From positions 62,001 through 126,000 of the forward strand of contig CAIOGO010000004.1 of NCBI GenBank assembly GCA_903857865.1: DNA of 64,000 nt, in the 5' to 3' direction. Shown here one piece after another: positions 19,691 through 55,373 of this stretch. The position numbers and the translations under genes are program-made. Source of the stretch: an uncultured bacterium. GTDB taxonomy: Bacteria; Bipolaricaulota; Bipolaricaulia; UBA7950; UBA9294. The first letter of the stretch is position 1. Each line of letters starts with the position of its first letter. Below the pieces are notes generated by a model, which was not told the origin of the DNA, made no database searches, and saw only the letters and a program-made list of their open reading frames with translations.

Positions 19691-21253
<1,563 letters not shown>

Positions 21254-21279
21254 CTAGGGAGTACCGGGACCGACAACCC

Positions 21280-21308
21280 GTGATCAGAACCACGCTGTCC
21301 CTTTTCAA
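21280..21308 (+). other. 3' arm of the 16S precursor processing stem
   Basis: 21289-21308 is complementary to 19614-19634 and 21280-21287 to 19655-19662. The trailer therefore closes a long helix around the mature 16S and shows that the precursor ends soon after the gene. I see no T-run terminator between here and 21456. Confidence 0.75.
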
Positions 21309-21434
21309 CCTTCTTCCCCTCGAGCGTGCTGTTGTCCACATCACCGTGGGACGCTTGTACCCTTTTCGGAGCGTGAATCTTCCCCCGCTTCGCCATCCGT
21401 TTCCTCTTGCCCCACTCGTCCGCCCTGTAGCCTC

Positions 21435-21444
21435 TCACCGGTGA
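21435..21444. promoter_or_regulatory. possible operator upstream of the Crp/Fnr gene
   Basis: TCACCGGTGA is a perfect 10-bp palindrome immediately before the ribosome site of the regulator. It could be an autoregulatory operator; the half-site TCACC shares TCAC with Crp-type sites. Confidence 0.35.
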
Positions 21445-21456
21445 AAGGGAGGACGG

Positions 21457-22119
21457 ATGCTATCCACGGCCAGTGAGAAAGCGAGCTTCGCTCGGCTGCT
21501 GACGGATCTCGGCGATCTGGTGCACGTCGAACGCGGCGAGACGATCTACCATCCCGGCTCAGCAAGCACCTCCGTGTTCGTGGTCGAGAAGGGACGAGTC
21601 AAGCTGGCCTACCTCGACGAGAGCGGCAAGAAGCTGACGCTGTCGATCCTCGATCAGGGGGAAATCTTCGGCGAGATGTGCCTAGTCGGGGAGAAGTTCC
21701 GGAGGCATCTTGCGTCGGCCGTCGACGACACGATCCTGCGCTGCGTCCCACGGAAGGAGTTCACGGACGCGATCAGCACCGACCTCGACGGGTTGCAGCA
21801 ACTCGTGCGTCACTTCGCGTTACGAATGCGCGAGTATGAGGAGACGCTCGAGGACCTCGCCTTTCGCGACATCCAGGCTCGACTGTCGCGCCAACTGCTG
21901 AAGCTATCCGACGAGTACGGGGTGGCAACGAAGGAGGGAATCCTCATTGGGTTCCCGGTGACGCACAAGGAGCTCGCGGACATGATCGGATCTGCGCGCG
22001 AGAATACCACGCTCGCGCTCAATCGGTTCGAGCGCGAGGGGATCCTCAACAAGAGTCGCTACAGAATCGTCATCAAGAACGAAGCGGGTCTCCGCCAGAA
22101 GATTCAAGTCCAACAATAA
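21457..22119 (+). CDS. Crp/Fnr-family transcriptional regulator
   Basis: A 220-residue regulator. Residues about 15-115 form the cyclic-nucleotide-binding-type barrel (VERGETIYHPGSASTSVF, later LDQGEIFGEMCLVGE), followed by a long dimer helix and a winged helix-turn-helix near residues 170-195 (VTHKELADMIGSARENTTLA). Only two cysteines are seen, so an Fnr-type iron-sulphur cluster is unlikely. The effector is unknown. AAAGGGAGG precedes the ATG. It lies directly downstream of the 16S unit but probably has its own promoter, and is followed by a strong terminator at 22149. Confidence 0.9.
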   Translation: MLSTASEKASFARLLTDLGDLVHVERGETIYHPGSASTSVFVVEKGRVKLAYLDESGKKLTLSILDQGEIFGEMCLVGEKFRRHLASAVDDTILRCVPRKEFTDAISTDLDGLQQLVRHFALRMREYEETLEDLAFRDIQARLSRQLLKLSDEYGVATKEGILIGFPVTHKELADMIGSARENTTLALNRFEREGILNKSRYRIVIKNEAGLRQKIQVQQ

Positions 22120-22148
22120 TCAGGTCATCCCATCTGAGGCGATGACCG

Positions 22149-22187
22149 CGCGGCGCGGAAGGGCTCTTCTGCGCCGCGTCTTCGTTT
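22149..22187 (+). terminator. rho-independent terminator
   Basis: A 13-bp stem (22149-22161 with 22166-22178, one G-U pair) with a 4-nt loop, followed by a T-rich run (TCTTCGTTT). It lies 30 nt after the Crp-family gene. Confidence 0.8.
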
Positions 22188-22250
22188 CCACGAAGGGTCT
22201 CTGGCATGAGGTGGCGCCCTCCCGTCGCGCTCCTCCCGGCCGGCGGAGTG

Positions 22251-22279
22251 TTGCCCGTCAAGGTGCCCTCTTGTAGACT
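22251..22279 (+). promoter_or_regulatory. sigma-70 promoter of the WD40 gene
   Basis: TTGCCC (22251-22256), 17-bp spacer, TAGACT (22274-22279), 64 nt before the start at 22343. Confidence 0.6.
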
Positions 22280-22342
22280 CCGCCCCGCACCGGGTCGCTG
22301 AGTCTGCGTGTGGGTCCAGGGTTCCGTCAAGGAGGACGAGGA

Positions 22343-23371
22343 ATGAAGCGCGCTGCAACGCTGCTCGCAGTTCTTGGCATCGCAATCGCCGCCGGCGGTG
22401 CCGGGCGCACAGCTGGCGCGGCGCCTCTCCCGACGCTTGAGGCAATCACCGTGCAGAACGTGGGCAGGCTTGAGCTATTGAGAACCCTGGAGATCCCGGG
22501 CTACAAGAAGGGCGCCGTGAGCCAATGCAGCGTGGCCTTCAGCCCCGACGGCCGGCTGCTCGTCGCGGCGTGCGGCGAGAGCCAGGTGCCCGTCTGGGAC
22601 GTGCAGACGGGGTCCATCGTGCGGGTTCTCTACGAAACGCCCCAGCACATCGTCGCGTGTGCCTTCAGCTCCGACGGCCGGCGCCTCGCTTGCGGCGGCT
22701 TCGACAACGCCATCACGCTATGGGATCTCTCGACCGGAGAGACGACGGCCGGCTTCGGCGTGCATGCCGGCCCGGTGTGGGAGCTTGCCTTCAGTCCGGA
22801 CGGGCAGACGCTCGCCTCGTGCAGCCTGTCGGCCGACGTGCGCCTTTGGGACCTCAGCACGCGCACCATGATGTGGAGCTATTTGGGCGCGAGCAGCTAC
22901 CTCAGTGTCGCCTTTGCGCCGTCGGGCAAGACCATCGCATGCGGCGGCCGATGGGACGGGGTCAGCATCCTGGACGCGACGACCGGGCAGCTCCTCGCGA
23001 AGCCGAGCGGACCCTCCTACGCGCCTGTTGGTGACGTGGCCTTCACCTTCTCCGGTGACATTCTGGCTGCGGGCGCCGACGATCGCGCGATCCACCTCTG
23101 GGACGCACCTACTTGCCAGGCCCTCGGGACGCTCCAAGGTCACCGCGGCTACGTGAACGGCATCGCCTTCAGTCCGGACGGGGCTCTGCTCGCATCGGGC
23201 AGCCACGACAAGACCCTAGGGATCTGGGACGTCGCCGGGCAGCGGCTGCTCAAGACGCTAGAAGGCCACACCGCGCAGGTCCTCCGTGTTGCCTTCAGCC
23301 CCGACGGAACGCTCCTCGCGTCGACGAGCTGGGACGGGACCGTCCGCCTGTGGGGAGTCCCCGCACCGTAA
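22343..23371 (+). CDS. secreted WD40-repeat protein
   Basis: A 342-residue exported protein. The signal peptide covers about residues 1-27 (MKRAATLLAVLGIAIAAGG onward, ending near AGAA). Seven WD40 blades follow, each with the pattern VAFSPDG, then a Gly/Ser-rich strand and LWDL or IWDV; the fourth blade is weaker. It should form a single beta-propeller acting as a binding platform in the envelope. AAGGAGGACGAGG precedes the ATG. It is not fused to any kinase or protease domain, unlike many bacterial WD40 proteins. The partner is unknown. Confidence 0.85.
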   Translation: MKRAATLLAVLGIAIAAGGAGRTAGAAPLPTLEAITVQNVGRLELLRTLEIPGYKKGAVSQCSVAFSPDGRLLVAACGESQVPVWDVQTGSIVRVLYETPQHIVACAFSSDGRRLACGGFDNAITLWDLSTGETTAGFGVHAGPVWELAFSPDGQTLASCSLSADVRLWDLSTRTMMWSYLGASSYLSVAFAPSGKTIACGGRWDGVSILDATTGQLLAKPSGPSYAPVGDVAFTFSGDILAAGADDRAIHLWDAPTCQALGTLQGHRGYVNGIAFSPDGALLASGSHDKTLGIWDVAGQRLLKTLEGHTAQVLRVAFSPDGTLLASTSWDGTVRLWGVPAP

Positions 23372-23690
23372 GTCCGGCCTCGACGTGGACGCACATTGGG
23401 CAGGGCGCCGGCCCCAACGTCGGCCTCGTCTTCGGCGGATGGGGCTACATCAAGCTCCTCTGGGTCGACGCGGCGTTGCGAGGCCGGGGACACGGGACGC
23501 GTCTCCTCCAGGTGTGGAAGAGGAAGCGCTCCGCCTTGGGTGCCGGAACGCCCACCTCGACACGTATAGCTTCGAGGCGCGGCCGTTCTACGGGAAGAAC
23601 GGCTACGAGGTATTCGCCACGCTCGACGACTTCCCGCCGGGGCACCAGAAGCACTTCTTACGCAAGCGGCTGGGGACGGAGATCCGATGA
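23372..23690 (+). pseudogene. GNAT acetyltransferase remnant with frameshift
   Basis: Two adjacent frames together give the second half of a GNAT enzyme: GLVFGGWGYIKLLWVDAALR with RGRGHGTRLLQ in one frame, then VEEEALRLGCRNAHLDTYSF and ARPFYGKNGYEVFATLDDFP in another. The switch lies near 23512 in GGTGTGG, consistent with a 2-nt insertion or a 1-nt deletion. The N-terminal half of the fold is missing: the homology begins right after the WD40 stop codon. It is probably a decayed gene whose front was lost. Confidence 0.75.
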
Positions 23691-23799
23691 GCTTCCGCAG
23701 GCCTGCTGCTTCGTCGAGGCGGAGCGCGGTCGATGTGCGGTCGTGGAGGAATCCCCTAGGGATGGCGGGCGCCCGCTCGTCCTTTGCACCCGGCGGAGC

Positions 23800-23827
23800 T
23801 TGATCGATCGAGTCTGTCCTGTAGGAT
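23800..23827 (+). promoter_or_regulatory. promoter of the phosphofructokinase gene
   Basis: TTGATC (23800-23805), 16-bp spacer, TAGGAT (23822-23827), 70 nt before the start at 23898. Confidence 0.5.
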
Positions 23828-23897
23828 GTGAGCTGGCAGCGCGCCGGCCGACGATAGCCCGCGCGCTGGCGCCTCACAGAGGCTGGACAGGAGCGCG

Positions 23898-25115
23898 ATG
23901 GCGACGGCGATCAAGCGAATTGGAATCATCACGAGCGGCGGGGACTGCGGCGGCCTGAACGCGGTCATTAAGGGCGCGGCCTTGGCCGCGGAGAGGCACG
24001 GCATCCGCACCTTCGTTATTCCGAACGGGTACGCGGGGCTCTACAACCTGGTCGACTTCGACTGCCTCGTCGAGCTCACGCCGGAGCGTCTCGAGGGGGT
24101 TGAGGCATCAATCGCCGGCGCGGAGAGTGGGCACTCGCGCGTCCAGCTGAAGAAGGTCGCGGATCCTGGCAAGTACGATCGAATCCGCCAGGGCCTCGCC
24201 AAGTTCAGCCTTGACGCGCTCCTCATCAGCGGAGGAGACGATACGGGGAACGTGATGCTCGACCTGGCCGCTCAGGGCGTGCGTTGCGTGCACGCGCCGA
24301 AGACGATGGACCTCGATCTTCAAACCTACTCAGTCGGCGGGGACTCGACGATCAGCCGCATCGCCGACTACGGGCGCGATCTCAAGACCACCGGGCGTAC
24401 GCACAATCGGGTCATTGTCGTCGAGGTGTTCGGGCGCTACGCCGGGCACACGGCGTTCCGCGGCGGCATCGCCGCGGAGGCGGACGCGATCCTCATCCCG
24501 GAGATCCCCGTCGACTTCGACCTCCTCTACGAGCACATGCAGCGGACCTATTGGGGACGCATCGCCGCGAGCGACGTGCGCGCGGGGACGTACCTGACCG
24601 TTGTGGCCGAGGGGTTGACCGACGCTTCGGGCTGCGAGTTGGTCGATGAGTCGGCGGGCTGCGACGCCTTCGGGCATAAGCGGCTGGCCGGCGCCGGCAA
24701 ATATGTCTGCGCCGAACTGACGAAACGGCTCAAGGCCGACTCGGAGACGCAGGTCCGGATGCGCGAGTTCGGGATGTTCGTCGAAGATTCGTACGAGATC
24801 CCCGAGGTCCGTTCGGTGACCCCCGGGCATCTCGTCCGGTGCGGCGAGACGTCGGCCTACGATGTGAACTTCGGGCTCGAAGCCGGAGCCGCGGCGGTCG
24901 AGTTGCTCGTTCGCGGGATAGACGCTGTCACGGTCGCCGAGGTGCGCGGAAGCGCGATCCGCTACATGAAAACCGCGGAAGCAATCCGGCAGCGGCACGT
25001 CGACCTGGCTCAGGTCGCCTTCCATGAGAACCTGGGCGTCTGCTTCGGCCGTTCCCCGGCGAAGCTCAAGTTCGAGTTCGTCGCGCTCACCTCGCCACCC
25101 GAGCGGTACATGTAG
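23898..25115 (+). CDS. pfk: 6-phosphofructokinase, pyrophosphate-type signature
   Basis: A 405-residue enzyme that phosphorylates fructose 6-phosphate. GIITSGGDCGGLNAVIKG is the N-terminal nucleotide/phosphate loop. The two residues that separate ATP- from PPi-dependent enzymes are both of the PPi kind: GGDDT (Asp where E. coli has Gly104) and PKTMDLD (Lys where E. coli has Gly124); the catalytic aspartates of TxDxD are kept. VVEVFGRYAGHTA is the usual fructose-6-phosphate region. It is longer than the 320-residue bacterial ATP enzymes, as PPi types often are. AGGAG precedes the ATG. It converges on the pyruvate oxidoreductase across a hairpin cluster. Confidence 0.9.
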   Translation: MATAIKRIGIITSGGDCGGLNAVIKGAALAAERHGIRTFVIPNGYAGLYNLVDFDCLVELTPERLEGVEASIAGAESGHSRVQLKKVADPGKYDRIRQGLAKFSLDALLISGGDDTGNVMLDLAAQGVRCVHAPKTMDLDLQTYSVGGDSTISRIADYGRDLKTTGRTHNRVIVVEVFGRYAGHTAFRGGIAAEADAILIPEIPVDFDLLYEHMQRTYWGRIAASDVRAGTYLTVVAEGLTDASGCELVDESAGCDAFGHKRLAGAGKYVCAELTKRLKADSETQVRMREFGMFVEDSYEIPEVRSVTPGHLVRCGETSAYDVNFGLEAGAAAVELLVRGIDAVTVAEVRGSAIRYMKTAEAIRQRHVDLAQVAFHENLGVCFGRSPAKLKFEFVALTSPPERYM

Positions 25116-25124
25116 GCGCCGGCG

Positions 25125-25432
25125 GCTGAACGCTGCTGAGCATCGTTCAGCTAGGCAGAAGGTGCTAAGCCCCTTCTGCACTCACGTTCCTAGGCTATTG
25201 GGTCAGCCCAGCCGAAGGGCACTCCGCCCGCCCTTCGGCCCTAGCGAGTCGCCCGCGGGCGACTCGCCGTTGGCTGCTCGGCACTTCCGGCTCCGGCCAA
25301 AGCAGCTGGGTGAACAGGATGTAAGGCTGTTCAGCTAAGGAGAAGGGAGCAGCTGCGCTGCTCCCTTCTCTTCGCATGCCAAGTCAGTCGGCTACGCCCC
25401 TTCCGCGCAGGAGAACGACAGAGTCGTTCTCC
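25125..25432. repeat. hairpin cluster A: seven perfect inverted repeats
   Basis: Between the convergent pfk and pyruvate oxidoreductase genes, which leave no room for a coding region. The stems are: 25125-25132 with 25144-25151; 25155-25162 with 25172-25179; 25211-25220 with 25230-25239; 25244-25267 (24-nt perfect palindrome); 25311-25317 with 25327-25333; 25340-25353 with 25357-25370 (14 bp); 25410-25419 with 25423-25432 (10 bp). Each is perfect yet nearly all differ in sequence. Many are separated by CTAG or CTAA. One or two could serve as terminators, but only weak T-runs follow. Confidence 0.85.
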
Positions 25433-25451
25433 CTAGCCGCCTGGGTTGCGC

Positions 25452-29144
<3,693 letters not shown>

Positions 29145-29260
29145 TCAACGGACGCGAGGGAAGGCGTTGCGCGTTCGAGGGATGTCTAGATTCCCCAGAG
29201 ATGAGGCATAACCGGGACGTTGGAGGTTGTTCGGCGAACGCGAACGTATGGAGGCATCGT

Positions 29261-29488
29261 ATGATGAAGAGACTCGTGGTTGTAGGGATGGTTGTTGCAC
29301 TCCTCCTCGGCGTGGCTGTGAGCGTGCTTGCCGACCCGATTCACGTGGGTGGCGGGCCGAAGCTCACCAGCACCCCGATCCATGTCGGTGGCGGGCCAAT
29401 GCTTCTGGGGTCCCCGATTCATGTCGGCGGGGGACCGCAGCTCATGAGCGCGCCAATTCACGTCGGCGGGGGGCCATTGGCGGAGTAG
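29261..29488 (+). CDS. small secreted protein built of four 13-residue repeats
   Basis: A 75-residue product. Residues 1-24 are a clean signal peptide (MMKRLVVVGMVVALLLGVAV, cut near VLA). The mature part consists only of repeats: PIHVGGGPKLTST, PIHVGGGPMLLGS, PIHVGGGPQLMSA and PIHVGGGPLAE. The core IHVGGGP is invariant in protein, while its codons vary at third positions between copies, which points to selection on the peptide. GGAGG lies before tandem ATGs at 29261 and 29264. No domain known to me matches. It may be a matrix peptide, a metal-binding (His) peptide or a multi-core precursor peptide; this is speculation. No modifying enzyme is adjacent. Confidence 0.75.
   Translation: MMKRLVVVGMVVALLLGVAVSVLADPIHVGGGPKLTSTPIHVGGGPMLLGSPIHVGGGPQLMSAPIHVGGGPLAE
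29336..29485 (+). repeat. 39-bp tandem repeat, 3.8 copies, coding
   Basis: Copies at 29336-29374, 29375-29413, 29414-29452 and 29453-29485. Each encodes PIHVGGGP followed by a variable five-residue spacer. Confidence 0.9.
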
Positions 29489-29689
29489 TCTGGAAGCGTT
29501 CGGGCCTCGGTGAGGCCATAGAAGAGGATGTGAGGGTGGCGAGCGTGCTCGTCACCCTTGCCTTGTTTGGCGCAGCTGTAGGTTCTCGGGCGTCGCACGG
29601 TGACAGCGGGTCGGCTTGGAGGCAGAATCGTCTGTGCCGGACGCACCACCGGGTGATGGGCGGAAGGGTGGCGCTGCGAGGAGAGTGGC

Positions 29690-30601
29690 GTGGTCAAAGG
29701 GTTGACGCTCGGAAAGGCTGACGAGGACGCGCAGAGGGCGGCGAAGCAGTCGTCGTCCGTTGAGCTTCTCGTGCAGCATCGAGCGCTCGAAGTGACGCGG
29801 CACCGAATCGCCGCTGGGAAGCACTTCTACCTTGACGAGGCGAGCGAGTGGTCGGGGTTCGAGTTCTTGTATGTGATTCGGGGCACGCTCACGCTCTCGA
29901 GCGGCGAGGGCAAGACGGCGGTCCATGAGGGCGAGTACCTCCACCACCACGGCCTACCAGAGCGAGCATACTTCCGAGTTGATGAAGACCTCGAGCTGCT
30001 CATGGTTTCGTCCCCGCCGAGCTATCACCTGGTCAAGGACGAGATCCAAGAGATCATGGCGCTGGCGCGATCCGTCGAAGAGAAGGACGAGGCGACGGAG
30101 GGCCATTGCCATCGACTTGAGCGTTTGGCCATCCGCACGGGGGAGCGACTGGGTCTGCCCGGGCAGCGGCTGATCGATCTCTCGTACGGCGCGTACCTGC
30201 ACGATGTGGGCAAGGTGCGCGTGCCCGATGGCATCTTGAACAAGCCGGGCCGACTCACGGATGAGGAGTGGGTGGAGATGCGGCGCCACCCGGAGCACGG
30301 GGCGGCGATGCTCCGCGAGAAGAGCTTCCTCAGGGCGGCAGCCCAGATCGTCGTCAGCCATCACGAGAACTACGACGGAAGCGGCTACCCACATGGTCTG
30401 CGCGGCGAGGAAATTCCCATGGAGGCGCGCGTTGTCTCGGTCGTCGATGCGTACGACGCCATCACCTCGGAGCGGCCCTACCAAGTTGCGGGGGCGAAGT
30501 CCAAGGCGGTCCAGGAGCTGCGGCTAAACGCGGGGACGCAGTTCGATCCGCGGGTCGTGCGGGCGTTCTTGTCGGTGATCGGGGAGGACGAGCTTGCGTA
30601 G
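29690..30601 (+). CDS. cupin plus HD-GYP protein, putative c-di-GMP phosphodiesterase
   Basis: A 303-residue cytoplasmic protein. Residues about 25-105 form a cupin-like barrel (FLYVIRGTLTLSSGEGKTAV, then EGEYLHHHGLPERAYF). The HD-GYP domain spans about residues 125-300, with LHDVGKVRVPDGILNKPGRL near 170, RHPEHGAAML, HHENYDGSGYPHGLRG near 224 and VVDAYDAITSERPY. HD-GYP enzymes hydrolyse c-di-GMP; the cupin could be the sensor. The GTG start has GAGGAG at good distance. It overlaps a small membrane-protein gene at its end. Confidence 0.85.
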   Translation: MVKGLTLGKADEDAQRAAKQSSSVELLVQHRALEVTRHRIAAGKHFYLDEASEWSGFEFLYVIRGTLTLSSGEGKTAVHEGEYLHHHGLPERAYFRVDEDLELLMVSSPPSYHLVKDEIQEIMALARSVEEKDEATEGHCHRLERLAIRTGERLGLPGQRLIDLSYGAYLHDVGKVRVPDGILNKPGRLTDEEWVEMRRHPEHGAAMLREKSFLRAAAQIVVSHHENYDGSGYPHGLRGEEIPMEARVVSVVDAYDAITSERPYQVAGAKSKAVQELRLNAGTQFDPRVVRAFLSVIGEDELA

Positions 30602-30767
30602 CCCATCGCTCGGTCGTTGGAAGCACCTGGCGATCCTGATTCCCCTCGGATTGGCCATCGGCGCGATCGGTGGCCTCGTGTGGAAGGATCTGTTGTTCGG
30701 CATCGCCGTGGGAGGAGGATTCGCCGTGCTCTATGGCCTGCTCTTCGCCCTGCGCAACGTGAGGTAG
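30594..30767 (+). CDS. small membrane protein with TTG start
   Basis: A 57-residue product: a basic N-terminus (LRSPSLGRWKHL) and two hydrophobic segments (AILIPLGLAIGAIGGLVW and LLFGIAVGGGFAVLYGLLFA). GGGGAGG lies six bases before the TTG at 30594, inside the end of the HD-GYP gene, which it overlaps by 8 nt. The layout recalls small AtpZ-like or DUF-type membrane proteins, but I cannot name a family. Probably translated together with the HD-GYP protein. Confidence 0.6.
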   Translation: MRSPSLGRWKHLAILIPLGLAIGAIGGLVWKDLLFGIAVGGGFAVLYGLLFALRNVR

Positions 30768-30787
30768 CGCAGAGAGAAGGGACCGCG

Positions 30788-30908
30788 GCCATGGCTCTGC
30801 CGACGGGAAGCCATGGCTAGGGAGAAGGGGGCAGCCTAGGCTGCCCCCTTCTCCTGGCCTTCTATGCCCTCTTCTGGTCTCACCCAGAGAGACAGTCTCC
30901 CTCTCTGG
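30788..30908. repeat. hairpin cluster B: three perfect inverted repeats
   Basis: Between convergent genes. Stems: 30788-30796 with 30809-30817; 30821-30854, a perfect 34-nt palindrome with half-site GGAGAAGGGGGCAG and centre CCTAGG; 30884-30891 with 30901-30908, which ends exactly at the neighbouring stop codon region. The middle element shares GAGAAGGG-GCAG with the 25340-25370 hairpin of cluster A. Confidence 0.85.
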
Positions 30909-32228
30909 CTACAGCTTCGGCATCAGGGTCGCGAACGCTCGCTCGAGGTCCGGCTGCCCGATCTCCTGTAGCTCGTAGCGAACGCGCGTCGTCGGGACCT
31001 TGAACTTGAGGAGTCGACCGAGGTCGATGGGGGTTCCAATGACGATGGCGTCGCACTCCACGCGGTCGACCGTCTTCTGGAGATCGCGTATCTGCTTCTC
31101 ACCGTAGCCCATGGCGGGGAGCAGCTTGCCGATGTCGGGGTACTTGCGGAACGTCGCGGTGAGGGAGTCGACCGTGTAGGGACGAGGGTCGACGAGTTCC
31201 GCGGCACCGAAGCGCTGGGCGGCGATCACGCCGGCCCCATACTCCATCCCGCCATGCGTGAGCGTCGGGCCGTCCTCGATCACCAGGACACGCTTGCCGC
31301 GAATGATGCTGGGATCGTCGACCTGGATTGGGGAGGCGGCCTCGATCACGAGCGCGTGGGGGTTCATCCCCATCACGTTCTCGCGGACGAAGTGGATGTC
31401 CTCAAGCGACGCGGTGTCGACCTTGTTGATGATGATCACGTCGGCCAACCGCACGTTCACACCGCTCGGGTAATAGAGCAGCTCGTGGCCGGCGCGGTGC
31501 GGGTCGACGACGACAATGGAGAGGTCGGGTTTGTAGAAGCAGAAGTCGTTGTTGCCGCCGTCCCAGATGATGACGTCTGCCTCTTTCTCGGCTGCGCGGA
31601 GGATCTTCTCGTAGTCGACGCCGGCATAGACGATGGTCCCGTTGTCGATGTGGGGCTCGTACTCCTCCCGCTCCTCGATCGTGCAGTGATGCTTCTCGAG
31701 GTCGGCATACGTCGCAAAGCGCTGGACTTCTTGCGCGACGAGGTCGCCATACGGCATGGGGTGACGAATGACGGCGAGCTTCTTCCCCTTCGCTTTCAGG
31801 ATGTCGCACACGCGACGCGTCGTTTGGCTCTTTCCGGAGCCCGTCCGGACCGCAGTAATCGACACGAGGGGCTTCACGGACTTCACCATCGTGGAGGCAG
31901 GCCCGAGCAGTATGAAGTCCGCGCCGGCTGCATTCACCTCGGCCGAGCGTTCCATGACGTACTGATTCGAGACGTCGCTGTAGCTGAACACCACGAGATC
32001 CGCTTTCTCTTCCTTGATCAGGGTCAGCAACTCGCTCTCCGCGTGGATGGCGATCCCGTTCGGATAGAGCTTGCCCGCCAGTTCGTGCGGGTACATCCGC
32101 CCAGCGATGTCCGGGATCTGCGTGGCCGTGAACGCGACGACTTCGTAGTCCTGATGGTTCCGGAAGTAGACGTTGAAGTTATGGAAGTCGCGGCCGGCAG
32201 CCCCCATGATGATGACCCGTCGTTTCAT
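30909..32228 (-). CDS. COG2403 predicted GTPase, cyclic 2,3-diphosphoglycerate synthetase-like
   Basis: A 439-residue P-loop protein. VIIMGAAGRDFHNFNVYFRN is the characteristic opening, the Walker A loop TAVRTGSGKSQTTR lies near residues 125-138, IIWDGGNND and ADVIIINKVDTAS (the latter NKxD-like) follow. The family includes archaeal cyclic 2,3-diphosphoglycerate synthetases, which close 2,3-diphosphoglycerate with ATP, and uncharacterised bacterial relatives. Whether this bacterium makes that compatible solute is unknown. A GAGGGAG site precedes the ATG. It is monocistronic and converges on hairpin cluster B. Confidence 0.8.
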   Translation of the reverse strand: MKRRVIIMGAAGRDFHNFNVYFRNHQDYEVVAFTATQIPDIAGRMYPHELAGKLYPNGIAIHAESELLTLIKEEKADLVVFSYSDVSNQYVMERSAEVNAAGADFILLGPASTMVKSVKPLVSITAVRTGSGKSQTTRRVCDILKAKGKKLAVIRHPMPYGDLVAQEVQRFATYADLEKHHCTIEEREEYEPHIDNGTIVYAGVDYEKILRAAEKEADVIIWDGGNNDFCFYKPDLSIVVVDPHRAGHELLYYPSGVNVRLADVIIINKVDTASLEDIHFVRENVMGMNPHALVIEAASPIQVDDPSIIRGKRVLVIEDGPTLTHGGMEYGAGVIAAQRFGAAELVDPRPYTVDSLTATFRKYPDIGKLLPAMGYGEKQIRDLQKTVDRVECDAIVIGTPIDLGRLLKFKVPTTRVRYELQEIGQPDLERAFATLMPKL

Positions 32229-32301
32229 GCGATTGTCTCCCTCTGTTGCAGGACTCGAATGTCCGCATTATGCGGTGCGGGGGAAACGTCTTCAAGGAGG
32301 C

Positions 32302-32330
32302 TTGTGCAGAGCAGTACGCGCGCTTATCAT
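32302..32330 (+). promoter_or_regulatory. promoter of the CDP-alcohol phosphatidyltransferase gene
   Basis: TTGTGC (32302-32307), 17-bp spacer, TATCAT (32325-32330). The start codon at 32339 is only 8 nt downstream, so the mRNA should be leaderless. Confidence 0.55.
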
Positions 32331-32338
32331 CGCATGCC

Positions 32339-32851
32339 ATGTCCGTCGCCAACCTCATCACGCTTGCCCGCGGGGCGCTCGTGGCGCCGGTCGTCTACCT
32401 CCTCCTCTCGGGTCAGCGCACGGCCGCCGCAGTCCTCTTCGTCGTCGTCTGCATCGGTGACATCGTCGACGGCATGGTGGCGCGGGCCCGCCATGAGGTG
32501 ACGCCTCTTGGGAAGGCTCTGGATCCGATTGTGGACAAGGCGCTGTACGTGTCGCTCCTTTCCGCGCTGCTCGTGCTCACAGAACTGTCCCCATGGGCGT
32601 ACGGGGCGTTTCTGGCTCCGCAGTTCGGCCTTGGCGTAGGTGCAATCTTCCTGCAGGTGAGGAGGCGGAAGGTCCAGGCGGCGCGCCTCATAGGGAAGGC
32701 TGCTTCTCTGCTGTCGTTCCTTGCGCTCCTCTTCCTGCTCGTGCGCTGGCCCGGAGGCCCGGAGCTCTTCTACGCGGCGATCGCCGCGACGTACGCGGCC
32801 GGTGTGGACTACTACCTCGCCGCGCGCTCGCTGGAGAAGTCGACCCCGTAG
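32339..32851 (+). CDS. CDP-alcohol phosphatidyltransferase
   Basis: A 170-residue membrane enzyme that transfers a phosphatidyl group from CDP-diacylglycerol to an alcohol, for example glycerol 3-phosphate (PgsA-like). The family motif D-x2-D-G-x2-A-R-x8-G-x3-D-x3-D is complete: DIVDGMVARARHEVTPLG followed by KALDPIVD near residues 44-70. About four to six membrane segments are seen. The alcohol substrate cannot be told. There is no Shine-Dalgarno site; the promoter is directly upstream. Its 3' end overlaps the convergent rluD-like gene by 40 nt. Confidence 0.85.
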   Translation: MSVANLITLARGALVAPVVYLLLSGQRTAAAVLFVVVCIGDIVDGMVARARHEVTPLGKALDPIVDKALYVSLLSALLVLTELSPWAYGAFLAPQFGLGVGAIFLQVRRRKVQAARLIGKAASLLSFLALLFLLVRWPGGPELFYAAIAATYAAGVDYYLAARSLEKSTP

Positions 32852-33726
32852 GTGTCCCACGGGAAGGTGGCTGGGGGCGGCGCCTCGAACGTGAGCGTCG
32901 CGCCGGTCGCGGGGTGTAGGATCGTGAGCTTCCATGCGTGCAGAAGGAGGTTCGCGTTGGGCGGGCCGCCGTACAGCGTGTCGCCGACGACGGGGTGGCC
33001 GATGTATGTGAAGTGCACGCGGATCTGGTGAGTTCTTCCAGTCCGAGGGCGCACGAGAACAAGCGAGCGGTCCAACTGACGCTGGAGGACGCGGAATTCC
33101 GTCTGGGCCGTGCGGCCGTCCAGGCGGACGGCCATTCGGCGGGGCGCACGAGGATCGCGACCGACGGGCGCATCAATGCACCCCTCGGATTCGCCGAACG
33201 ATCCCACCACGAGCGCGACGTACAGCTTCTCGACGACGCGTTCCGCGAATTGGCGCTTCAGCGACGCCAAGGCGCGCGGGGTCTTCGCAACGACGAGGAT
33301 GCCTGTCGTTTCCTTGTCGATCCGATGGACGATGCCGGGACGAGCAGGGTCGTCGGACGCGGGCAGGGTCCTCGTCGCCAGCAAACCCTCCACGAGCGTG
33401 GTCTTTCCAGTGGTTCCTGCTCCGGGATGGACGATGAGTCCCGCCGGTTTATTCACCGCCAGCACCTCGCTGTCCTCGTATACGATGTCCAGGGGCAACG
33501 GCGCCGGGGTTAGGATCTGGGGCATTCTCTGTTCCCAAGCGACTTGCTCGCCGATGCGAAGGCGGTGAGACGGCTGCAGGACCGGGCGGCCGCCGATCGA
33601 GACGCGTCCGTCTCGGATTTGCCGCTGGATCTCCGCACGAGAAACGTGACCCTCCAGCGCGACCAGGAATTGGTCGAGGCGGCGACCTTGATCTTCGGGG
33701 CCGATCTTTCGGGAGATCTGTTCCAT
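32812..33726 (-). CDS. rluD: RluD-family large-subunit pseudouridine synthase
   Basis: A 304-residue enzyme that isomerises uridines of 23S rRNA to pseudouridine. An S4 domain occupies about residues 15-70 (RLDQFLVALEGHVSRAEIQR). The catalytic motif HRIDKETTG with the essential Asp lies near residue 132, and RPRTGRTHQIRVHFTYIGHP and GDTLYGG follow, all typical of RluC/RluD. Which uridines are modified is not certain. The start at 33726 is one of several in-frame options. It is divergent from nusA. Confidence 0.88.
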   Translation of the reverse strand: MEQISRKIGPEDQGRRLDQFLVALEGHVSRAEIQRQIRDGRVSIGGRPVLQPSHRLRIGEQVAWEQRMPQILTPAPLPLDIVYEDSEVLAVNKPAGLIVHPGAGTTGKTTLVEGLLATRTLPASDDPARPGIVHRIDKETTGILVVAKTPRALASLKRQFAERVVEKLYVALVVGSFGESEGCIDAPVGRDPRAPRRMAVRLDGRTAQTEFRVLQRQLDRSLVLVRPRTGRTHQIRVHFTYIGHPVVGDTLYGGPPNANLLLHAWKLTILHPATGATLTFEAPPPATFPWDTYGVDFSSERAAR

Positions 33727-33742
33727 CGCGTCAGGGATTCGT

Positions 33743-33771
33743 TTGTCCGCGCTCGCGGACTTCCGTATAAT
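33743..33771 (+). promoter_or_regulatory. sigma-70 promoter of nusA
   Basis: TTGTCC (33743-33748), 17-bp spacer, consensus TATAAT (33766-33771). It gives a leader of about 135 nt before the start at 33913. Confidence 0.75.
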
Positions 33772-33801
33772 GCCCTCGTCGCGTATCCGAGCGAGCGAGG
33801 G

Positions 33802-33830
33802 GTGGTCGCCCCAGGGCGACCACGTTGTTT
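33802..33830 (+). promoter_or_regulatory. terminator-like hairpin in the nusA leader
   Basis: GTGGTCGCCC (33802-33811), CA, GGGCGACCAC (33814-33823), followed by GTTGTTT. A 10-bp perfect stem with a T-rich 3' side lies between promoter and start codon, so it could act as an attenuator through which NusA controls its own gene. Confidence 0.5.
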
Positions 33831-33912
33831 CCTGCGTGAGGGTATGGAAAGAGGGACGAGAAGTCCACTTCCGCGGGGGGTGGGCGAGGATGCGTGGCGG
33901 AGACGGAAGACG

Positions 33913-34872
33913 ATGAACATTGAGTTTATTGAGGCGCTGGAAGAGATGGCAAAGGAGAAAGGGATCCCGCGAGAGGATCTCTATGCGGCCGTTCGCAAGG
34001 GACTTGCCGCCGCGTTCGCAGAAGAGCACGGGCTCGACGATGAGGACATCGACGTCGAGATCGACCAGCACTCCGGCGACATCACCATTCGAGGCCAGCG
34101 TATCGATCTTGCCAAGTTCGGGAGGATTGCGACGAAGAAGGCCGAGGAGACGATCCGACAGGAGATCGTCCAGCGACGTCGGGAGATCGTCCATGGCTTG
34201 TTTGCGTCGCGCGTCGGTGAAGTGATCAGTGGATCGATCCACCGATTCGAGGGGAAGAGCGTGTGGGTCAACCTCGGAGAAGCCGAAGCGATTCTTCCTG
34301 AGGCGGAGCGGATTCCCGGGGAGCGGTACCACGCCGGCGAGCGGCTGCGCGCGTATCTCGTCAGCGTCGAGGAGACGCAGGGCGACCCGCGAATTCTCCT
34401 GTCTCGGACGCGGAAAGAGTTCGTCGCCGCCCTCATGCGGCTTGAGGTTCCCGAGTTGGAGGAAGGCATCCTGGTGATACGCGCCATTGCGCGCGAGCCG
34501 GGACGTCGCTCGAAAGTGGCGGTCGAGTCCCTCGATCGCAACGTAGATCCGGTGGGGACGTGCGTCGGGGCGGGAGGCGCCCGCGTGCGCATGGTCACGC
34601 GCGAACTGTCGGGGGAGAAGATCGATCTCGTCCGGTGGAGCGATGACCTGGTCCAGCTGTTGAAGAATGGACTCGAGCCGGCCCGTGTCCTTTCGGTGGA
34701 ACTCAACGAGGAGACGAGGAAAGCGAAGGTCGTCGTGCCGGACGACGAGCTCTCCTTGGCCATCGGGAAGGGCGGCCAGAACGTGCGACTGACCGCGAAG
34801 CTCCTCGGGTACGACATCGACGTGACGAGCCCGTCCGAAAGCGCGGCTGCCGCAGCCGCAGCCGCAGTCTAG
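33913..34872 (+). CDS. nusA: transcription termination/antitermination factor NusA
   Basis: A 319-residue RNA polymerase-binding factor controlling pausing, termination and rRNA antitermination. The N-terminal domain starts MNIEFIEALEEMAKEKGI. The S1 domain (GSIHRFEGKSVWVNLG) begins near residue 105, KH1 follows after EPGRRSKVAVES, and KH2 holds LAIGKGGQNVRL near residue 280. It ends in an alanine-rich tail and lacks the C-terminal acidic repeats of E. coli NusA, as in many bacteria. The usual neighbours rimP and infB are absent here. GGAGACGGAAG precedes the ATG. Confidence 0.94.
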   Translation: MNIEFIEALEEMAKEKGIPREDLYAAVRKGLAAAFAEEHGLDDEDIDVEIDQHSGDITIRGQRIDLAKFGRIATKKAEETIRQEIVQRRREIVHGLFASRVGEVISGSIHRFEGKSVWVNLGEAEAILPEAERIPGERYHAGERLRAYLVSVEETQGDPRILLSRTRKEFVAALMRLEVPELEEGILVIRAIAREPGRRSKVAVESLDRNVDPVGTCVGAGGARVRMVTRELSGEKIDLVRWSDDLVQLLKNGLEPARVLSVELNEETRKAKVVVPDDELSLAIGKGGQNVRLTAKLLGYDIDVTSPSESAAAAAAAAV

Positions 34873-35080
34873 GGCCGCAAACGATCCGCCCGCGCTCCTG
34901 GATCCGCCGCGGGAAACGCTGCTCCTCGATCGAAGGGCCGCGTAGCGTTCTCGCAGCCCAATGAAGACAGCCTCAGGCAAGTGCCCGGACGTGTGCCGTT
35001 CGTGGCGATCCCCTATGCGGGCGTGTCTCCTTCCTGCCCTCGCGCCGTTGCCGCGTCCATGCCGCAACGAAGGAAGAGGG

Positions 35081-35086
35081 TATAAT
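35081..35086 (+). promoter_or_regulatory. -10 box upstream of rny
   Basis: Consensus TATAAT, 34 nt before the rny start; no convincing -35 at 17 bp. Confidence 0.5.
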
Positions 35087-35120
35087 CGGACGCAAACTGG
35101 GCGAAGGGGAGTGGCGAGGC

Positions 35121-36638
35121 TTGGGCACAGTACTGAACACGGTCAGCGCGATAGTCAGCTTGGTGGCCGCCGTGCTCATCGGCCTGTTGATAGGGAGCGT
35201 ACCTCGCCGCCGGAGAGAAGCCGAGATTGTCGCTCAGGCCGAAGAGGAAGCGGATCGCCTCAAGAAAGAGAAGCTCCTCGAGGGGCGTCAGCACATCGAG
35301 GAGCTGAAGGACGAGTTCGAGGAGCGGGCCAAGCGGCGCGAGGAGGAAGTTGCCCGCGCCGAGGCGCGCATCCTTCGCCGGGAGGATCGACTCGGCAAGA
35401 AAGCGTCTCAGCTTGAGAAGACTGAGGATTCCCTGCGCGTCGACGAAGAAGAAATGCTCCGACTGAAGGAAGAGGGGATACGTCTTCTCGAGCAGGAGAA
35501 GCAGCAACTCGAGCACACCGCGGAGTGGACGCGCGAGCAAGCGCGCGAGCACCTGCTCAAGGTCGTGGAGAACGAGTCCCAGCTCTACTTCTCGAAAAAG
35601 ATGGAGGAGATCGAGCGCAAGGCGCGCGACGAGGCCGAGGAACGAGCGGCCCACATCGTGGCTACCGCGGTTCAGCGATACGCCGTCGAGTACATCGAGC
35701 AGAACGCGGTCAGCTCTGTCCCTCTGCCGTCAGAGGACTTCAAGGGCCGGATCATCGGCCGCGAGGGACGCAACATCAAGACGTTCGAGGCTCTAACAGG
35801 CGTCGAGTTGCTGGTTGACGACACGCCCGAGATGGTCGTTCTTTCCTGTTTCAACCCCCTGCGGCGGGAGGTGGCGCGCATGGCGCTGACTCGGCTGATC
35901 GAGGACGGCCGGATCCACCCCGCACAGATCGAAGAGAAGGTGCAGCGCGCGAAGGCGCGTCTCGCGGACCGTGTCAAGGAGGAAGGGAAGAAGGCGGCGT
36001 TCGATCTTGGGATCGATCTTCATCCCGAGTTGGCCGCACTCCTCGGGCGGCTCCGCTATCGCACGAGCTATGGCCAGAACCAGCTCGTCCACTCGATCGA
36101 AGTGAGTGTCGTAGCGAAGATCCTTGCCGACGAGCTTGGGTTGAACGCGAAGAAGGCGAAGAGGGCCGGCCTTCTGCACGACATCGGAAAGGCCGTTGAC
36201 CACGAGGTCGACGGGCCGCACGCTCTGATCAGCGCCGATCTAGCGCGGCGGTATGGCGAGAGCCACGACGTGGTGCAGGCGATCGCCGCCCACCATGAGG
36301 ACATCGAGGCGGTGGGAATCCTCGACGTGCTCGTCCAAGCCGCCGACGCGCTCTCCGCTGCGCGCCCCGGGGCGCGCCAGGAAACCTACGAACGATACGT
36401 CCAGCGGCTGCACGATCTCGAAGAGCTGTGCCGGTCGTTCCCGGCGGTCCAAGAGGCCTACGCGATCCAGGCGGGACGTGAAGTCCGCGTGATGGTCCAG
36501 CCCGACCGAGCGAACGACGAGCTTGCCGCCAAGCTGGCCTATGACATTGCGCGAGCGATCGAAGAGGAATTGAGTTACCCCGGCGAGATCAAGGTCAATG
36601 TCGTGCGACACACACAATTCTCTGAGAACGCGAAGTAG
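35121..36638 (+). CDS. rny: ribonuclease Y
   Basis: A 505-residue membrane-anchored endoribonuclease that starts mRNA decay. The order of domains is canonical: one N-terminal membrane segment (about residues 8-25), a long charged coiled coil to about 190, a KH domain with GRIIGREGRNIKTFE near 206, and an HD domain with GLLHDIGKAVDHE near 350 and AAHHEDIEAV. The start is TTG, with GAAGGGGAG upstream. It heads a run rny - spoVS - PpiC/TPR - mazG - DUF4911 - yqeG. Confidence 0.95.
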   Translation: MGTVLNTVSAIVSLVAAVLIGLLIGSVPRRRREAEIVAQAEEEADRLKKEKLLEGRQHIEELKDEFEERAKRREEEVARAEARILRREDRLGKKASQLEKTEDSLRVDEEEMLRLKEEGIRLLEQEKQQLEHTAEWTREQAREHLLKVVENESQLYFSKKMEEIERKARDEAEERAAHIVATAVQRYAVEYIEQNAVSSVPLPSEDFKGRIIGREGRNIKTFEALTGVELLVDDTPEMVVLSCFNPLRREVARMALTRLIEDGRIHPAQIEEKVQRAKARLADRVKEEGKKAAFDLGIDLHPELAALLGRLRYRTSYGQNQLVHSIEVSVVAKILADELGLNAKKAKRAGLLHDIGKAVDHEVDGPHALISADLARRYGESHDVVQAIAAHHEDIEAVGILDVLVQAADALSAARPGARQETYERYVQRLHDLEELCRSFPAVQEAYAIQAGREVRVMVQPDRANDELAAKLAYDIARAIEEELSYPGEIKVNVVRHTQFSENAK

Positions 36639-36654
36639 CGCAGCGAGGCGGGCA

Positions 36655-37056
36655 ATGAAAGTGCTCTGGGCGTCCGCGACGACGGATCCGACAGCCGCGC
36701 GTGGCGCCGTTGCGAGCGGAGTTCGCGAGGCGGGTGCCGCCGAGGCTCAGGTCGGCGGTTCCTGCGTCATGAACCGGGCCGTGGGAGACGTTGCCCGAGA
36801 GTGCTTGGTGTGCGCAGCGTGCGGTGTGGATGCGTTCTGGGCCCCGGGATTCGCCAGCGCCCAGGCTGCGGAGGATGAAGGGGAAGGACGGGGATCTGCT
36901 TCCGGGTCTGTCCTCGGCAACGACGTCCGCACGGCGACGTGTCGAGCGCGTCGTGACCGAGTGGGCGACGTCCTGCGCAAGGGTTCCTTGTTCCGCGAAG
37001 GCCGCGTCTGTACCATTCGGACGAATCCTGCAATTCTGGTCAAGGGAGTGACGTAG
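36655..37056 (+). CDS. SpoVS-related protein with C-terminal extension
   Basis: A 133-residue protein. The first about 60 residues ([20 protein letters not shown], then [20 protein letters not shown]) follow SpoVS/Alba-like proteins, and the rny-spoVS order seen in many bacteria supports the assignment. SpoVS is normally about 86 residues; here about 45 extra residues follow, rich in Gly, Ser and Arg. SpoVS supports spore coat assembly in Bacillus, but its homologues occur in non-sporulating bacteria with unknown role. It begins 16 nt after rny and ends 4 nt before the next gene. Confidence 0.7.
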
Positions 37057-37060
37057 AGCG

Positions 37061-39667
37061 ATGTCCACGTACTTGAAGCGCCATCAGAAAGCGGTCATTT
37101 GGGCCGTCATCATCTCGTTTGTCATCGGGGCGGGCGGACTGATCAGTCTCGATCGTGCCGGGGTCTTCAACAGCAAAACGTCCGGGACGAGCTCGACGCA
37201 GCCGAAGTTCGCTGCGATCGTCGAAGGCGACAAGGTCAGCCTGGAGACGCTCAACGCGCGGGCGACGCAGTTGATGACTCAGTACAAGAATCTCTACACC
37301 CAGGCGGGCATGGACCCGACTACGCTGTTCAACGGCGCGTCCGGCGCGATGCTCAAGCTGCGACTTGAGTCCGGCGCCCTGTCGGACCTGATTCGTGAGA
37401 CCATCTACGCTCAAGAGGCGCGCAGCCGCGGGATCCGGGTGGCCGACTCCGTCGTCGACGCGGAATTGGCCACGCAGTACGGGCAAGTCCTCACGTCGAA
37501 TGGAATCACCGAGGCCCAGCTGAAGGTGTATCTCGAGGCCCAAGGACAGACGCTCGAGAGCTTCAAGGCGTCGTTGCGTCCGTCGATCGCGACACAGCTC
37601 TTTGTGAGTGCCGTCAACGCGGAAGTGGCACCAAGCTCGACGCCCACGGAGGATGAGCTTGCGAGCTACTTCGAGAAGAACATCGCCAAGTACGACACCG
37701 GGGAGCAGGTCCACGCGATGCACATTCTCGTGGCTGATCTCGCTACCGCGCAGCAAGTCGAGAAGGAACTCATCGCAGGTGCCGACTTCGCGGCGCTGGC
37801 GGCCAAGTACTCTACGGACACAGGCAGCAAGGCCAAGGGTGGCGATCTCGGGTGGTTCGAGCGCGGGAAGATGGTGACGGAGTTCGAGGACGCCGCGTTC
37901 GCTCTGCAACCCGGGGAAACAAGCGAACCTGTCAAGACCCAGTACGGGTATCACATCATCCGCGTCGTGGAGCGGAAGGACGCGCACACGCCGACGCTGG
38001 CCGAGATTCGCAGCCAGGTGCTGGCGGACGTGCAGACGGAGAACCGGACCACGCAAGGCCAGGCCTGGTACACCGAAGTTCGCAAGACCAAGAAGGTCGA
38101 GATTGGCATCCCCGTCGTGCAGGCGTTCATGATGCAGGAACAGAACATCGATCGCGGGTTGGCGGAATTCGAGCGCCTGCGATCCGAGGACAAGGGGACG
38201 GATCCATACCTGTCGTACTACATCGGACAGATCTACGAGGCCAAGGCGAGTTCGGCCGCGAGCGGACGGACGACGCTGGAAGCCACAGCGTCGCCGACTC
38301 CGGAACAGGTCAGCCAGATTGCGCAATTGAAGGCGATCGAGAAGGAGAGCAAGGACAAGGCGTTGGCGGCGTACGTCGCCCTGGTGGAGGACGGCGAGGT
38401 GGACGAGGGTCTCCTGACGAAGATCCTCAACTTCGATCCCGGCAATATGGTGGCGATGATGGCGATGGGAACCCTCCTCGCGGAGAAGGGAGACTCGGCG
38501 GGGGCACAGACCCGCTACGAGCAAGTCATCTCCGCCAACCCGCAGTCGTCGGACGCTCTCATCGTTTCGGCCGACCTCGCGCAGAAGGACGGCAACTACG
38601 CGCTCGCCAGGCAACGGTTCCAGCAGGCGCTGGCGCTTCGGGCGCGCGATGCGAGCCTGGAGCTCAAGTTGGTCGCCGTGCTCCTCGCCCTGGACGACGT
38701 CGCCGGGGCGGACGCCATGGCGGCGGCGATCCGCCAGACCGATCCGCAGAACTCCCGCCTCGCGATTGCCGAGGCCGATGTGGCCAAGGCGAAGCTAGGG
38801 CGGGCTGTGGGGGAGCGCGACGCGCTCAAGGCCAAGTCGAATCGCACGGCGGCGGAGGAGACGCAGTTGGCTGCCCTGGGGCGCCAGGTTGACGAGCTGT
38901 ACCAGGCTGCGGTCACGCGTTACGAGACCGCCATCAAGGCCGGCGGAAACCTCGATCTCAACGTGAAGCTCGGCGAGACCCACCTCCTGGCTGGGAAACT
39001 CGACGCGGCCGAGAAGGAACTCCAAGCGGTTCTCGTTCGATCTCCGTACCGCGCCGACGCATACGAGGGCCTCGCCAAGGTCAACCTCGCCCGCGGCCAG
39101 ACGGACAAGGCGCTCGAGCAGCTGCGGACGGCGCTCGCGCGCTCGTTCGACAGCAACCAACGCATTCGCCTTGCCGAGCAGATCGTGAGGCTTGACCCGA
39201 AGGACACGTCGACGCGACTCCGCCTGGCGAAGCTGTACAGCGACGACGGCCAGTCGAGCGCTGCCATTCGCGAGTTCGGTCAGCTCATCGCGGCCGACCC
39301 GGCGATCGAGGACGCGTATTCCGGCATCGCCAAGGCCTACGTGGCCAGCGGCGAGTACGATTCGGCTCTCGACTACCTCAAGCGTGGAGTGGCCGGCGTC
39401 AAGCAGGATGCGGCGAAGATTCGCCTGTACCAGCAGGTTGTCGATACCGACCAAGCGGACGTCGGGCAGGGCAAGCCGCTCTCGTCCGCCGGCCTCGATG
39501 CGCTCATCGAGATCGCCAAGCTCGATATCTCGCGCGGCGACACGACCGATGCTCGGAATCGTCTCACGCAGGTACAGGCCGCAGACAGCAAGTACCGCGC
39601 CTCGGAAGTGTCCGCGCTGTCGGAGCAACTGGGCCCGGCAACCTCTGCGCCCGCATCCAGCCAGTGA
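37061..39667 (+). CDS. PpiC-type peptidyl-prolyl isomerase fused to TPR repeats
   Basis: An 868-residue envelope protein. A short cytoplasmic basic tail and one membrane segment ([18 protein letters not shown]) anchor it. A SurA-N-like helical region spans about 50-200. The parvulin rotamase domain is at about 214-303 ([20 protein letters not shown], then [13 protein letters not shown] and [14 protein letters not shown]). From about 355 to 860 there are at least eight TPR-like repeats. It should fold or hold exported proteins; the TPR part may bring clients. It is probably co-transcribed with spoVS and overlaps mazG by 4 nt. Confidence 0.85.
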
Positions 39668-51893: not shown

Positions 51894-52272
51894 GAGGGGT
51901 GCTCGACTCCTCAGGGCGATGAGATCTACCACCTGCTCGAAGCCACAGGGTCGGATCTGGGGTCTCGACATGAAGAGGCAAGATTGGATCCTGACGTCCA
52001 GACTGCTCGGAGCGAGCAGCCGTCTACGTCGTGCCGAACGAGCCTGGAGTTGCAGGCGCAACTCCCTAGCTGTCCGGTACAGCTGGACAGCCACCGTCCC
52101 CTGCACAAAATCCGATGGTAGACCCCGCCGCCGTGACTCCGTCGCCCCGTTGCCCAGCATGCTTTGGTTGTGACCTATGGTCTGCTAATGTAGGATGTAC
52201 TGCAACTGGGAGCCGGTCTCTTGAGGACGCAAGGATACGGGTTGCTGGAGTGTGCGGGAAGTGGGACGTGCT
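51894..52272. other. spacer between HNH and OLD genes
   Basis: 379 bp without a convincing gene. It contains a 7-bp inverted repeat (GCTGTCC near 52069 with GGACAGC near 52085) and the OLD promoter at 52168-52196. Confidence 0.45.
52168..52196 (+). promoter_or_regulatory. promoter of the OLD-family gene
   Basis: TTGTGA (52168-52173), 17-bp spacer, TAGGAT (52191-52196), giving its own transcript separate from the HNH gene. Confidence 0.55.
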
Positions 52273-55306: not shown

Positions 55307-55373
55307 TGTACCGTCGGGCGATTGGGGGGCTTCGTCAGATCCGGGCAGACGCCAGTCTTGGAGAAGGGGGAAG

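Follow-up and report, generated by a model that had tools for sequence, protein, structure and literature searches.

The closest described counterparts of the sequences reported here are the REP, BIME and REPIN elements. Sections of PMC3733652 show that the stems of published REP families carry complementary changes, and that TIR-flanked Y1 transposase genes carry a GGGGWSAS motif. According to part of PMC6006769, REP sequences are not associated with those Y1 subclasses that have a large C-terminal domain, and TnpAREP enzymes are described in excerpts of PMC8266576 as reading the tetranucleotide at the foot as well as the shape of the hairpin, to differing degrees. Perfect hairpins can also be made by template switching, which passages of PMC8794818 describe for RNA genes. 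The collection of open-access papers searched yielded no paper on palindromic repeats of Bipolaricaulota and none on intergenic hairpin repeats with CTAG; the papers retrieved for Bipolaricaulota together with REP or transposases concern other subjects, judging by their abstracts.

The window analyzed in this study is a stretch of 64,000 nucleotides from a draft genome of an uncultured member of the Bipolaricaulota (G000; 2.24 Mb, 22 contigs, 91% complete). Three intergenic clusters of perfect hairpins (A, B, and C) had been described in it by a first-pass annotation. Perfect stems of at least 7 bp with a loop of up to 20 nt were counted and compared with 1000 dinucleotide shuffles for each cluster. 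The seven hairpins of cluster A (25125–25432, stems of 7–14 bp) were all recovered, compared with a mean of 0.66 and a maximum of 4 in shuffles of the 336-nt gap, none of which reached 7. The three hairpins of cluster B were recovered as well (stems of 9, 17, and 8 bp; 2 of 1000 shuffles reached 3 at stems of at least 7 bp). Of the four hairpins claimed for cluster C, three (55219, 55251, and 55278) were found by the same rule, a number reached by 4 of 1000 shuffles; the fourth, CTGGCC/GGCCAG, has a stem of 6 bp and a longer loop, as seen by eye. Cluster A is located between a phosphofructokinase-like gene (23898–25115, best models under their cut-offs) and the convergent gene of a pyruvate:ferredoxin oxidoreductase (25452–29000; TIGR02176, 1933 bits), which among named sequences matches Candidatus Bipolaricaulota MAGs most closely (77% and 73%). 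Cluster B also separates convergent genes, and cluster C is flanked by genes that run in the same direction. The oxidoreductase-like gene that precedes cluster C (54176–55121) is split into two ORFs and contains two stops when read in a single frame, which may reflect a frameshift or a sequence error. The tetranucleotide CTAG is scarce in the window (50 occurrences, 209 expected from the base frequencies); eight of these occurrences are inside the three cluster gaps.

Hairpin density was determined in a 603-kb sample of G000, in which genes were called crudely by a simple codon-usage script. The 47 convergent gaps contained 19 stems of at least 10 bp (0.0 after shuffling), the 224 tandem gaps 29 (1.6), the 70 divergent gaps 5 (0.8), and the 515 kb of coding sequence 51 (32). 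The first-pass annotation had proposed this comparison, with a density no higher than in shuffled sequence speaking against its observation; the hairpins are far above chance. They are also clumped, with 35 of the 47 convergent gaps lacking any stem of at least 8 bp and six containing three or more.

The hairpin sequences had been regarded as mutually unrelated, which did not hold. Their arms share the feet (GC.. and GGAGAA/GGAGTT) and a linker, and in hairpin-rich gaps the elements keep to one order, which reads H1-TAG-H2 or, in reverse complement, H2-CTA-H1. H1 starts with GC(T/C/G)(G/A) preceded by G, and H2 with GGAGAA, GGAGTT, or a near variant. This two-hairpin unit, termed doublet in the following, can be written as G[GCyr..yrGC]TAG[GGAGaa/tt..CTCC], in which feet and linker are constant and the inner stems covary. 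Doublets are about 45–90 nt long and occur singly, in tandem, or in alternating orientation. Among the intergenic hairpin pairs with a linker of 0–6 nt, the linker is exactly TAG, CTA, or CCTA in 17 of 42, and the whole pair scan yielded 76 pairs compared with 28 in the shuffled genome. The linker reads TAG in 74, TTG in 14, TGG in 7, and TAGG in 5 of the 100 distinct copies that were aligned. With a probability of roughly 75%, we regard the clusters as belonging to a single dispersed family of non-coding DNA repeats similar to REP and BIME elements, each consisting of two hairpins joined by CTAG. A family defined by the consensus GAGAAGG..CCTTCTC was rejected as too narrow; within the genus (four genomes) it gave 15 matches and its reversed control 3, but the control equalled or exceeded it in 12 of 20 genomes.

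Two covariance models were built. R1 was based on 18 aligned pairs, whose seeds were picked for perfect pairing, and R2 on 101 matches that came from four species. R1 gave 52 matches at E ≤1 in the 603-kb sample, and six of its genome-wide matches (E ≤0.1) are inside the window. R2 detected seven doublets in the window. Cluster A comprises four of them in the alternating orientation +, −, +, −; same-direction tandem arrays were found elsewhere. A1 (25122–25182, +; 39.0 bits, E 1.6e-6) consists of H1 at 25125–25151, TAG at 25152–25154, and H2 at 25155–25179. In A2 (25208–25270, −; 41.4 bits, E 4.9e-7), H2 (25211–25239) is followed by a linker with CTAG at 25241 and by H1 (25244–25267). A3 (25306–25374, +) is the weakest (22.9 bits, E 0.0035; R1 E 0.097) and combines a 7-bp H1 (25311–25333), a GCTAAG linker, and a 14-bp H2 (25340–25370); an orthologous pair is present in G001, where the letters of H2 differ. 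A4 (25407–25463, −; 44.4 bits, E 1.2e-7) includes H2 at 25410–25432, CTA, and H1 at 25436–25460 (arms 25436–25442/25454–25460), the end of which overlaps the last bases of the oxidoreductase gene. Doublet B (30785–30857, +; 46.2 bits, E 5.2e-8) is composed of H1 (30788–30817), TAG, and an H2 of 17 bp without a loop (30821–30854). The third hairpin of this cluster (30884–30908, CCAGAGAG/CTCTCTGG) is outside any doublet. In cluster C, a lone H1-like hairpin (55219–55242, +) is followed by TAG with no H2 seen, and doublet C (55248–55309, +; 38.8 bits, E 1.7e-6) contains H1 at 55251–55273, the linker TGGG, and H2 at 55278–55306. The seventh doublet (52043–52094, −; 53.1 bits, E 1.9e-9) is absent from the first-pass annotation.

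Copy numbers from the genome searches are lower bounds, since they refer to the first-look candidates scored in each genome (150 for R1, in G000 150 of 2352; 53 for R2, in G000 53 of 2181). At E ≤0.1, R1 detected at least 69 copies in G000, at least 15, 28, and 16 in three congeners, at least 10 in G006, and at least 3 in G004; none was found in 14 other relatives among the candidates scored. In 100 genomes of the phylum, R2 (E ≤0.001) revealed copies in 14 of 33 genomes of the same family, belonging to six genera, and in none of 67 genomes outside the family among the candidates scored. This search was stricter (filters, E 0.001), yielding 43 copies in G000 compared with 69 by R1 at E 0.1. 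By eye, no doublet was found in the gap downstream of the oxidoreductase gene in a named relative (L010). The family does not account for every perfect hairpin, because 31 of the 53 intergenic stems of at least 10 bp in the 603-kb sample are outside model matches. In match-free flanks of 80 nt, stems of at least 7 bp were present at 22 of 211 gene 3′ ends (shuffled 6) and 19 of 298 5′ ends (shuffled 5); these may be half-copies, other repeats, or ordinary terminators.

Covariation was quantified in two alignments. Alignment A3, with 17 pairs and 100 distinct rows, was drawn from 69 sources (E ≤0.001) and therefore does not contain the doublets A2 and A3 of cluster A or doublet C. In it, 97.4% of the cells pair, and two-sided changes numbered 411 compared with 122.9 after shuffling (score 0.595 vs. 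0.155; slid controls ≤0.124). The corresponding values of alignment A2 (52 rows) were 192 and 58.1 (score 0.531 vs. 0.152). The numbers of pairs changed on both sides were less striking (14 vs. 12.0, with 7 of 500 shuffles as high, and 15 vs. 12.3, with 2 of 500). All these figures lean in favor of covariation, because the seeds were perfect pairs and alignments A2 and A3 were fitted to the model. Compensatory changes were also seen in orthologous gaps, the alignment of which the first-pass annotation had suggested as a check; in H2 of the orthologous A4, for example, three pairs differ, all of them by transitions, and both versions are perfect.

The copy content of orthologous gaps varies. 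The doublet of gap B is present in G000, G001 (together with further H1-like hairpins), and G003 and absent from G002, G004, and G006. Doublet C was found in G000 only, the orthologous gap of G001, G002, G004, and G006 being without it; in G001 (L246) and G002 (L245), this gap is filled by a different repeat, ACCGCGGAG..GCGCAGAG..GACGCGGAGG and its complement. The sets of doublets in gap A differ among G000, G001, and G002, and in two orthologous gaps (C16:54.6 kb and C10:298.3 kb) the copies have opposite orientation. A unit of about 150–160 nt around one doublet is common to C10:89.8 kb, C16:54.6 kb, G001 L214, and G003 L232, with an identity of mostly 88%–90% (L232 vs. C16, 80% over 231 nt). 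The unit of L214 is orthologous to neither of the two G000 units, since it is bordered by sequences matching C10:118 and C10:126 kb. Arrays at C104 of G081, which belongs to another genus, are similar to the one at C10:33.2 kb (up to 84% over 216 nt, 87% over 186 nt, and 88% over 142 nt); other array pairs are 72%–86% alike. The C10:33.2 kb and G081 C104 arrays occupy non-orthologous places, and their flanks showed no match at the DNA level. Small gene pairs near both (L277, G081 C104, 7105–7556; G000 C10:27389–27825), which we take to resemble HicB/HicA toxin–antitoxin pairs, are distantly alike in tblastx (46% over 67 amino acids), so that an old shared neighborhood might still account for the similarity. 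Recent spread or transfer fits, because the non-coding array is more alike than the conserved oxidoreductase gene, which is 79% identical in G000 and G081. Exact ends or target-site duplications of doublets were not found in the draft genomes. At several loci, doublets are located among tRNA genes and repeated tRNA 3′-end fragments with terminator hairpins (G000 C6:83153–84307, L198; C3:37883–39530, L204; C2:85157–85932, L195; C4:34700–35200, L210; G002 C178:5350–6373, L213), and in some cases a T-arm directly adjoins the outer end of H1, as would result if copies had inserted into tRNA ends or duplicated them. Integration linked to tRNA genes was rejected as a rule; the window is without a tRNA gene.

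The perfection of the stems could also stem from replication template switching, which would make palindromes and keep them perfect with no function needed. This had been one half of the first-pass inference, and we consider it unlikely as the explanation of the clusters. It agrees with two orthologous doublets (C3:38329 and C2:85230), in which the inner H1 stem is replaced in both arms and H2 is kept; at C6:83293, the replacement is partial. A further case is C15:9545, where the stem has 15 bp in G003 and 7 bp in G000 and G001; the 5′ arm of G003 resembles the 5′ arm plus loop of the other two, and its 3′ arm is unlike theirs. This trio is suggestive of one arm having been copied from the other, although for three sequences without an outgroup decay is also possible. 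The footprint of loop inversion, by contrast, was not convincingly found in 670 pairs of like-armed copies; reverse-complement-like loops occurred in 30 pairs, one of which was flagged as loop-only, weakly. Stem intermediates do exist, as H1 of gap B is imperfect in G003 and a variant whose stem carries a fixed internal mismatch is found repeatedly without repair, with six occurrences in a single G081 array and also in G000. At C16, the stems of G000 and G001 are identical and the loop of H2 differs. Template switching also leaves the constant feet, the CTAG linker, and the spread of one family unexplained. That the hairpins are instead intrinsic, often bidirectional terminators or stabilizers of mRNA 3′ ends, which arose independently at gene ends, appears quite unlikely. 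The 69 G000 copies are located between tandem (38), convergent (15), or divergent genes (4), in called CDS (5), or next to one unknown neighbor (7), a preference for convergent and tandem gaps that terminators would share. Gap B contains one plain hairpin after the stop codon in G002, G004, and G006 at the place of the doublet of G000, G001, and G003, so copies may assume a terminator role at some places. Against a terminator origin, no T-run terminator site was detected in cluster A or B when positions 20000–39000 were scanned, and the 12 sites in this region are at chance level (10.1, SD 3.5). The copies between tandem genes are read with the genes in 19 cases and against them in 19, they form a common sequence family, and Rho matches were obtained in 20 of 20 genomes, 18 of them above the cut-off. 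In the 603-kb sample, 5 of 47 convergent gaps have an R1 match and 42 have none, and the numbers with a match are 21 of 224 for tandem gaps and 1 of 70 for divergent gaps (51 of the 52 matches were used, a half-match inside another being omitted); the doublet is therefore no general gene-end device. A stem acting in RNA on one strand would be expected to show a clear G·U preference. G·T and A·C are similarly rare among the cells (14 and 13 of 797; 25 and 18 of 1603 in a larger set), which is also what template switching would allow. Together with the 19:19 orientation, this favors a DNA palindrome over a terminator or a one-strand RNA, and the elements more probably work at the level of DNA than of RNA. 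At Rfam gathering scores, the whole window contained 16S rRNA only, with no known RNA family at the clusters. The first-pass notion of a class of RNA or DNA structural elements at gene borders thus survives as one covarying family, with DNA favored and gene borders being only a preference.

A further source of the doublets might be the resident Y1 transposases of about 290 amino acids, of which they would be the ends or which would have moved them. We consider this very unlikely. Matches to Y1 transposases (PF01797) were found in 13 of 20 relatives, and G000 encodes four (C10:122.5, C22:9.0, C22:100.0, and C13:73.6 kb), two of which have good doublet copies in their vicinity, at distances of about 600 nt and 1.4 kb. 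However, 9 of 13 such genes examined are bounded by inverted GGGGTCAG-type repeats, which are unrelated to the doublet and fit the GGGGWSAS motif given in sections of PMC3733652. Two of the G000 genes have 928 nt in common at 94% identity, without a doublet and with GGGGTCAGATCTTC inverted repeats at both ends; on account of these shared features, they may be mobile themselves. G003 and G081 contain at least 16 and 23 doublets and no Y1 match (drafts, 67% and 92% complete), whereas Y1 matches were obtained in G010 and G016, where no doublet was found among the candidates scored. By their length and a weak HTH match below the cut-off, the proteins probably belong to the subclass with a large C-terminal domain. 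No Y1 or RAYT gene flanked by doublet copies was found in the draft genomes, and the doublet is accordingly not classified as a REPtron. RAYT-like genes in G002 and G016 (L189) are flanked by GTAG-type REP repeats, GTAG-CGTCGCAG(acaag)CTGCGACG-CTAC and variants; at the G002 gene (L177, C112, 2650–3550), one of these repeats carries a nested CTAG-type hairpin. Similar GTAG-type hairpins are present in G000 (C10:89714).

Under the preferred reading of one dispersed two-hairpin DNA repeat, the folded single DNA strand with its short constant feet would be recognized by a putative processing enzyme, and the remainder of the stem may drift provided that pairing holds. Copies would spread and then persist where they are least harmful, like REP and BIME elements. 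An enzyme that reads shape is reasonable, though unproven, in view of the reading of foot and hairpin shape by TnpAREP in the excerpts of PMC8266576. Pairing may be kept by selection or by arm-to-arm copying. As a tentative possibility, the doublets might represent a mobile family recognized almost only by its shape (two hairpins and a CTAG joint), whose stems are continually rewritten in both arms and which spread between genera without Y1/RAYT, through an enzyme for which no link with palindromic repeats has yet been made. Families with covarying stems are easily overlooked, because repeat finders group copies by sequence and the letters do not persist; here, a structure-aware model merged "unrelated hairpins" into one family. 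With its many orthologous and paralogous copies, this REP-like family, which lacks the customary tag and partner gene, lends itself to asking whether palindromes are kept perfect by selection on the folded single strand of DNA or because one arm is copied from the other.

Compared with known systems, the doublets resemble intrinsic terminators in their stable GC-rich hairpins close to gene ends and differ in the missing T run (clusters A and B) and orientation bias, in forming a common family, and in most gene ends being without a copy. With hairpins of quasi-palindrome correction or template switching, as presented in passages of PMC8794818, they have perfect stems and multi-base compensated changes in common; constant feet and dispersal, with no loop inversions found, set them apart. 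TIR-flanked tyrosine transposases of the type described in parts of PMC3733652 are represented in the same genomes by the GGGGTCAG-bounded Y1 genes, the repeats of which are unrelated to doublets. The first-pass annotation had separated the clusters from REP elements on the grounds that only the architecture repeats. This argument fails, since the sequence of the feet repeats and REP stems also show complementary changes (sections of PMC3733652). In relation to REP, BIME, and REPIN elements, as far as covered by portions of PMC3733652, PMC6006769, and PMC8266576, the differences concern the linker and foot, which are (C)TAG instead of the REP tag GTAG or CGTC, the two hairpins, which are unlike each other and have one common joint, the far more variable stems, and the lack of a Y1/RAYT gene flanked by copies among those found. 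A GTAG (GTGG) or CGTC tag, unpaired at the foot, was not detected in 100 distinct copies, and the doublet is therefore not placed in the GTAG or CGTC superfamilies. On the other hand, doublets are short, multi-copy, mainly intergenic palindromes, like REP sequences of about 20–65 nt, with 5 of the at least 69 G000 matches in called CDS. As to the dimers and clusters of opposite orientation formed by REP sequences, the doublets alternate in cluster A, and the arrays found elsewhere are tandem with one direction. They share with REP, BIME, and REPIN elements the complementary stem changes, the confinement to a lineage, and the location near gene 3′ ends, in convergent and tandem rather than divergent gaps.
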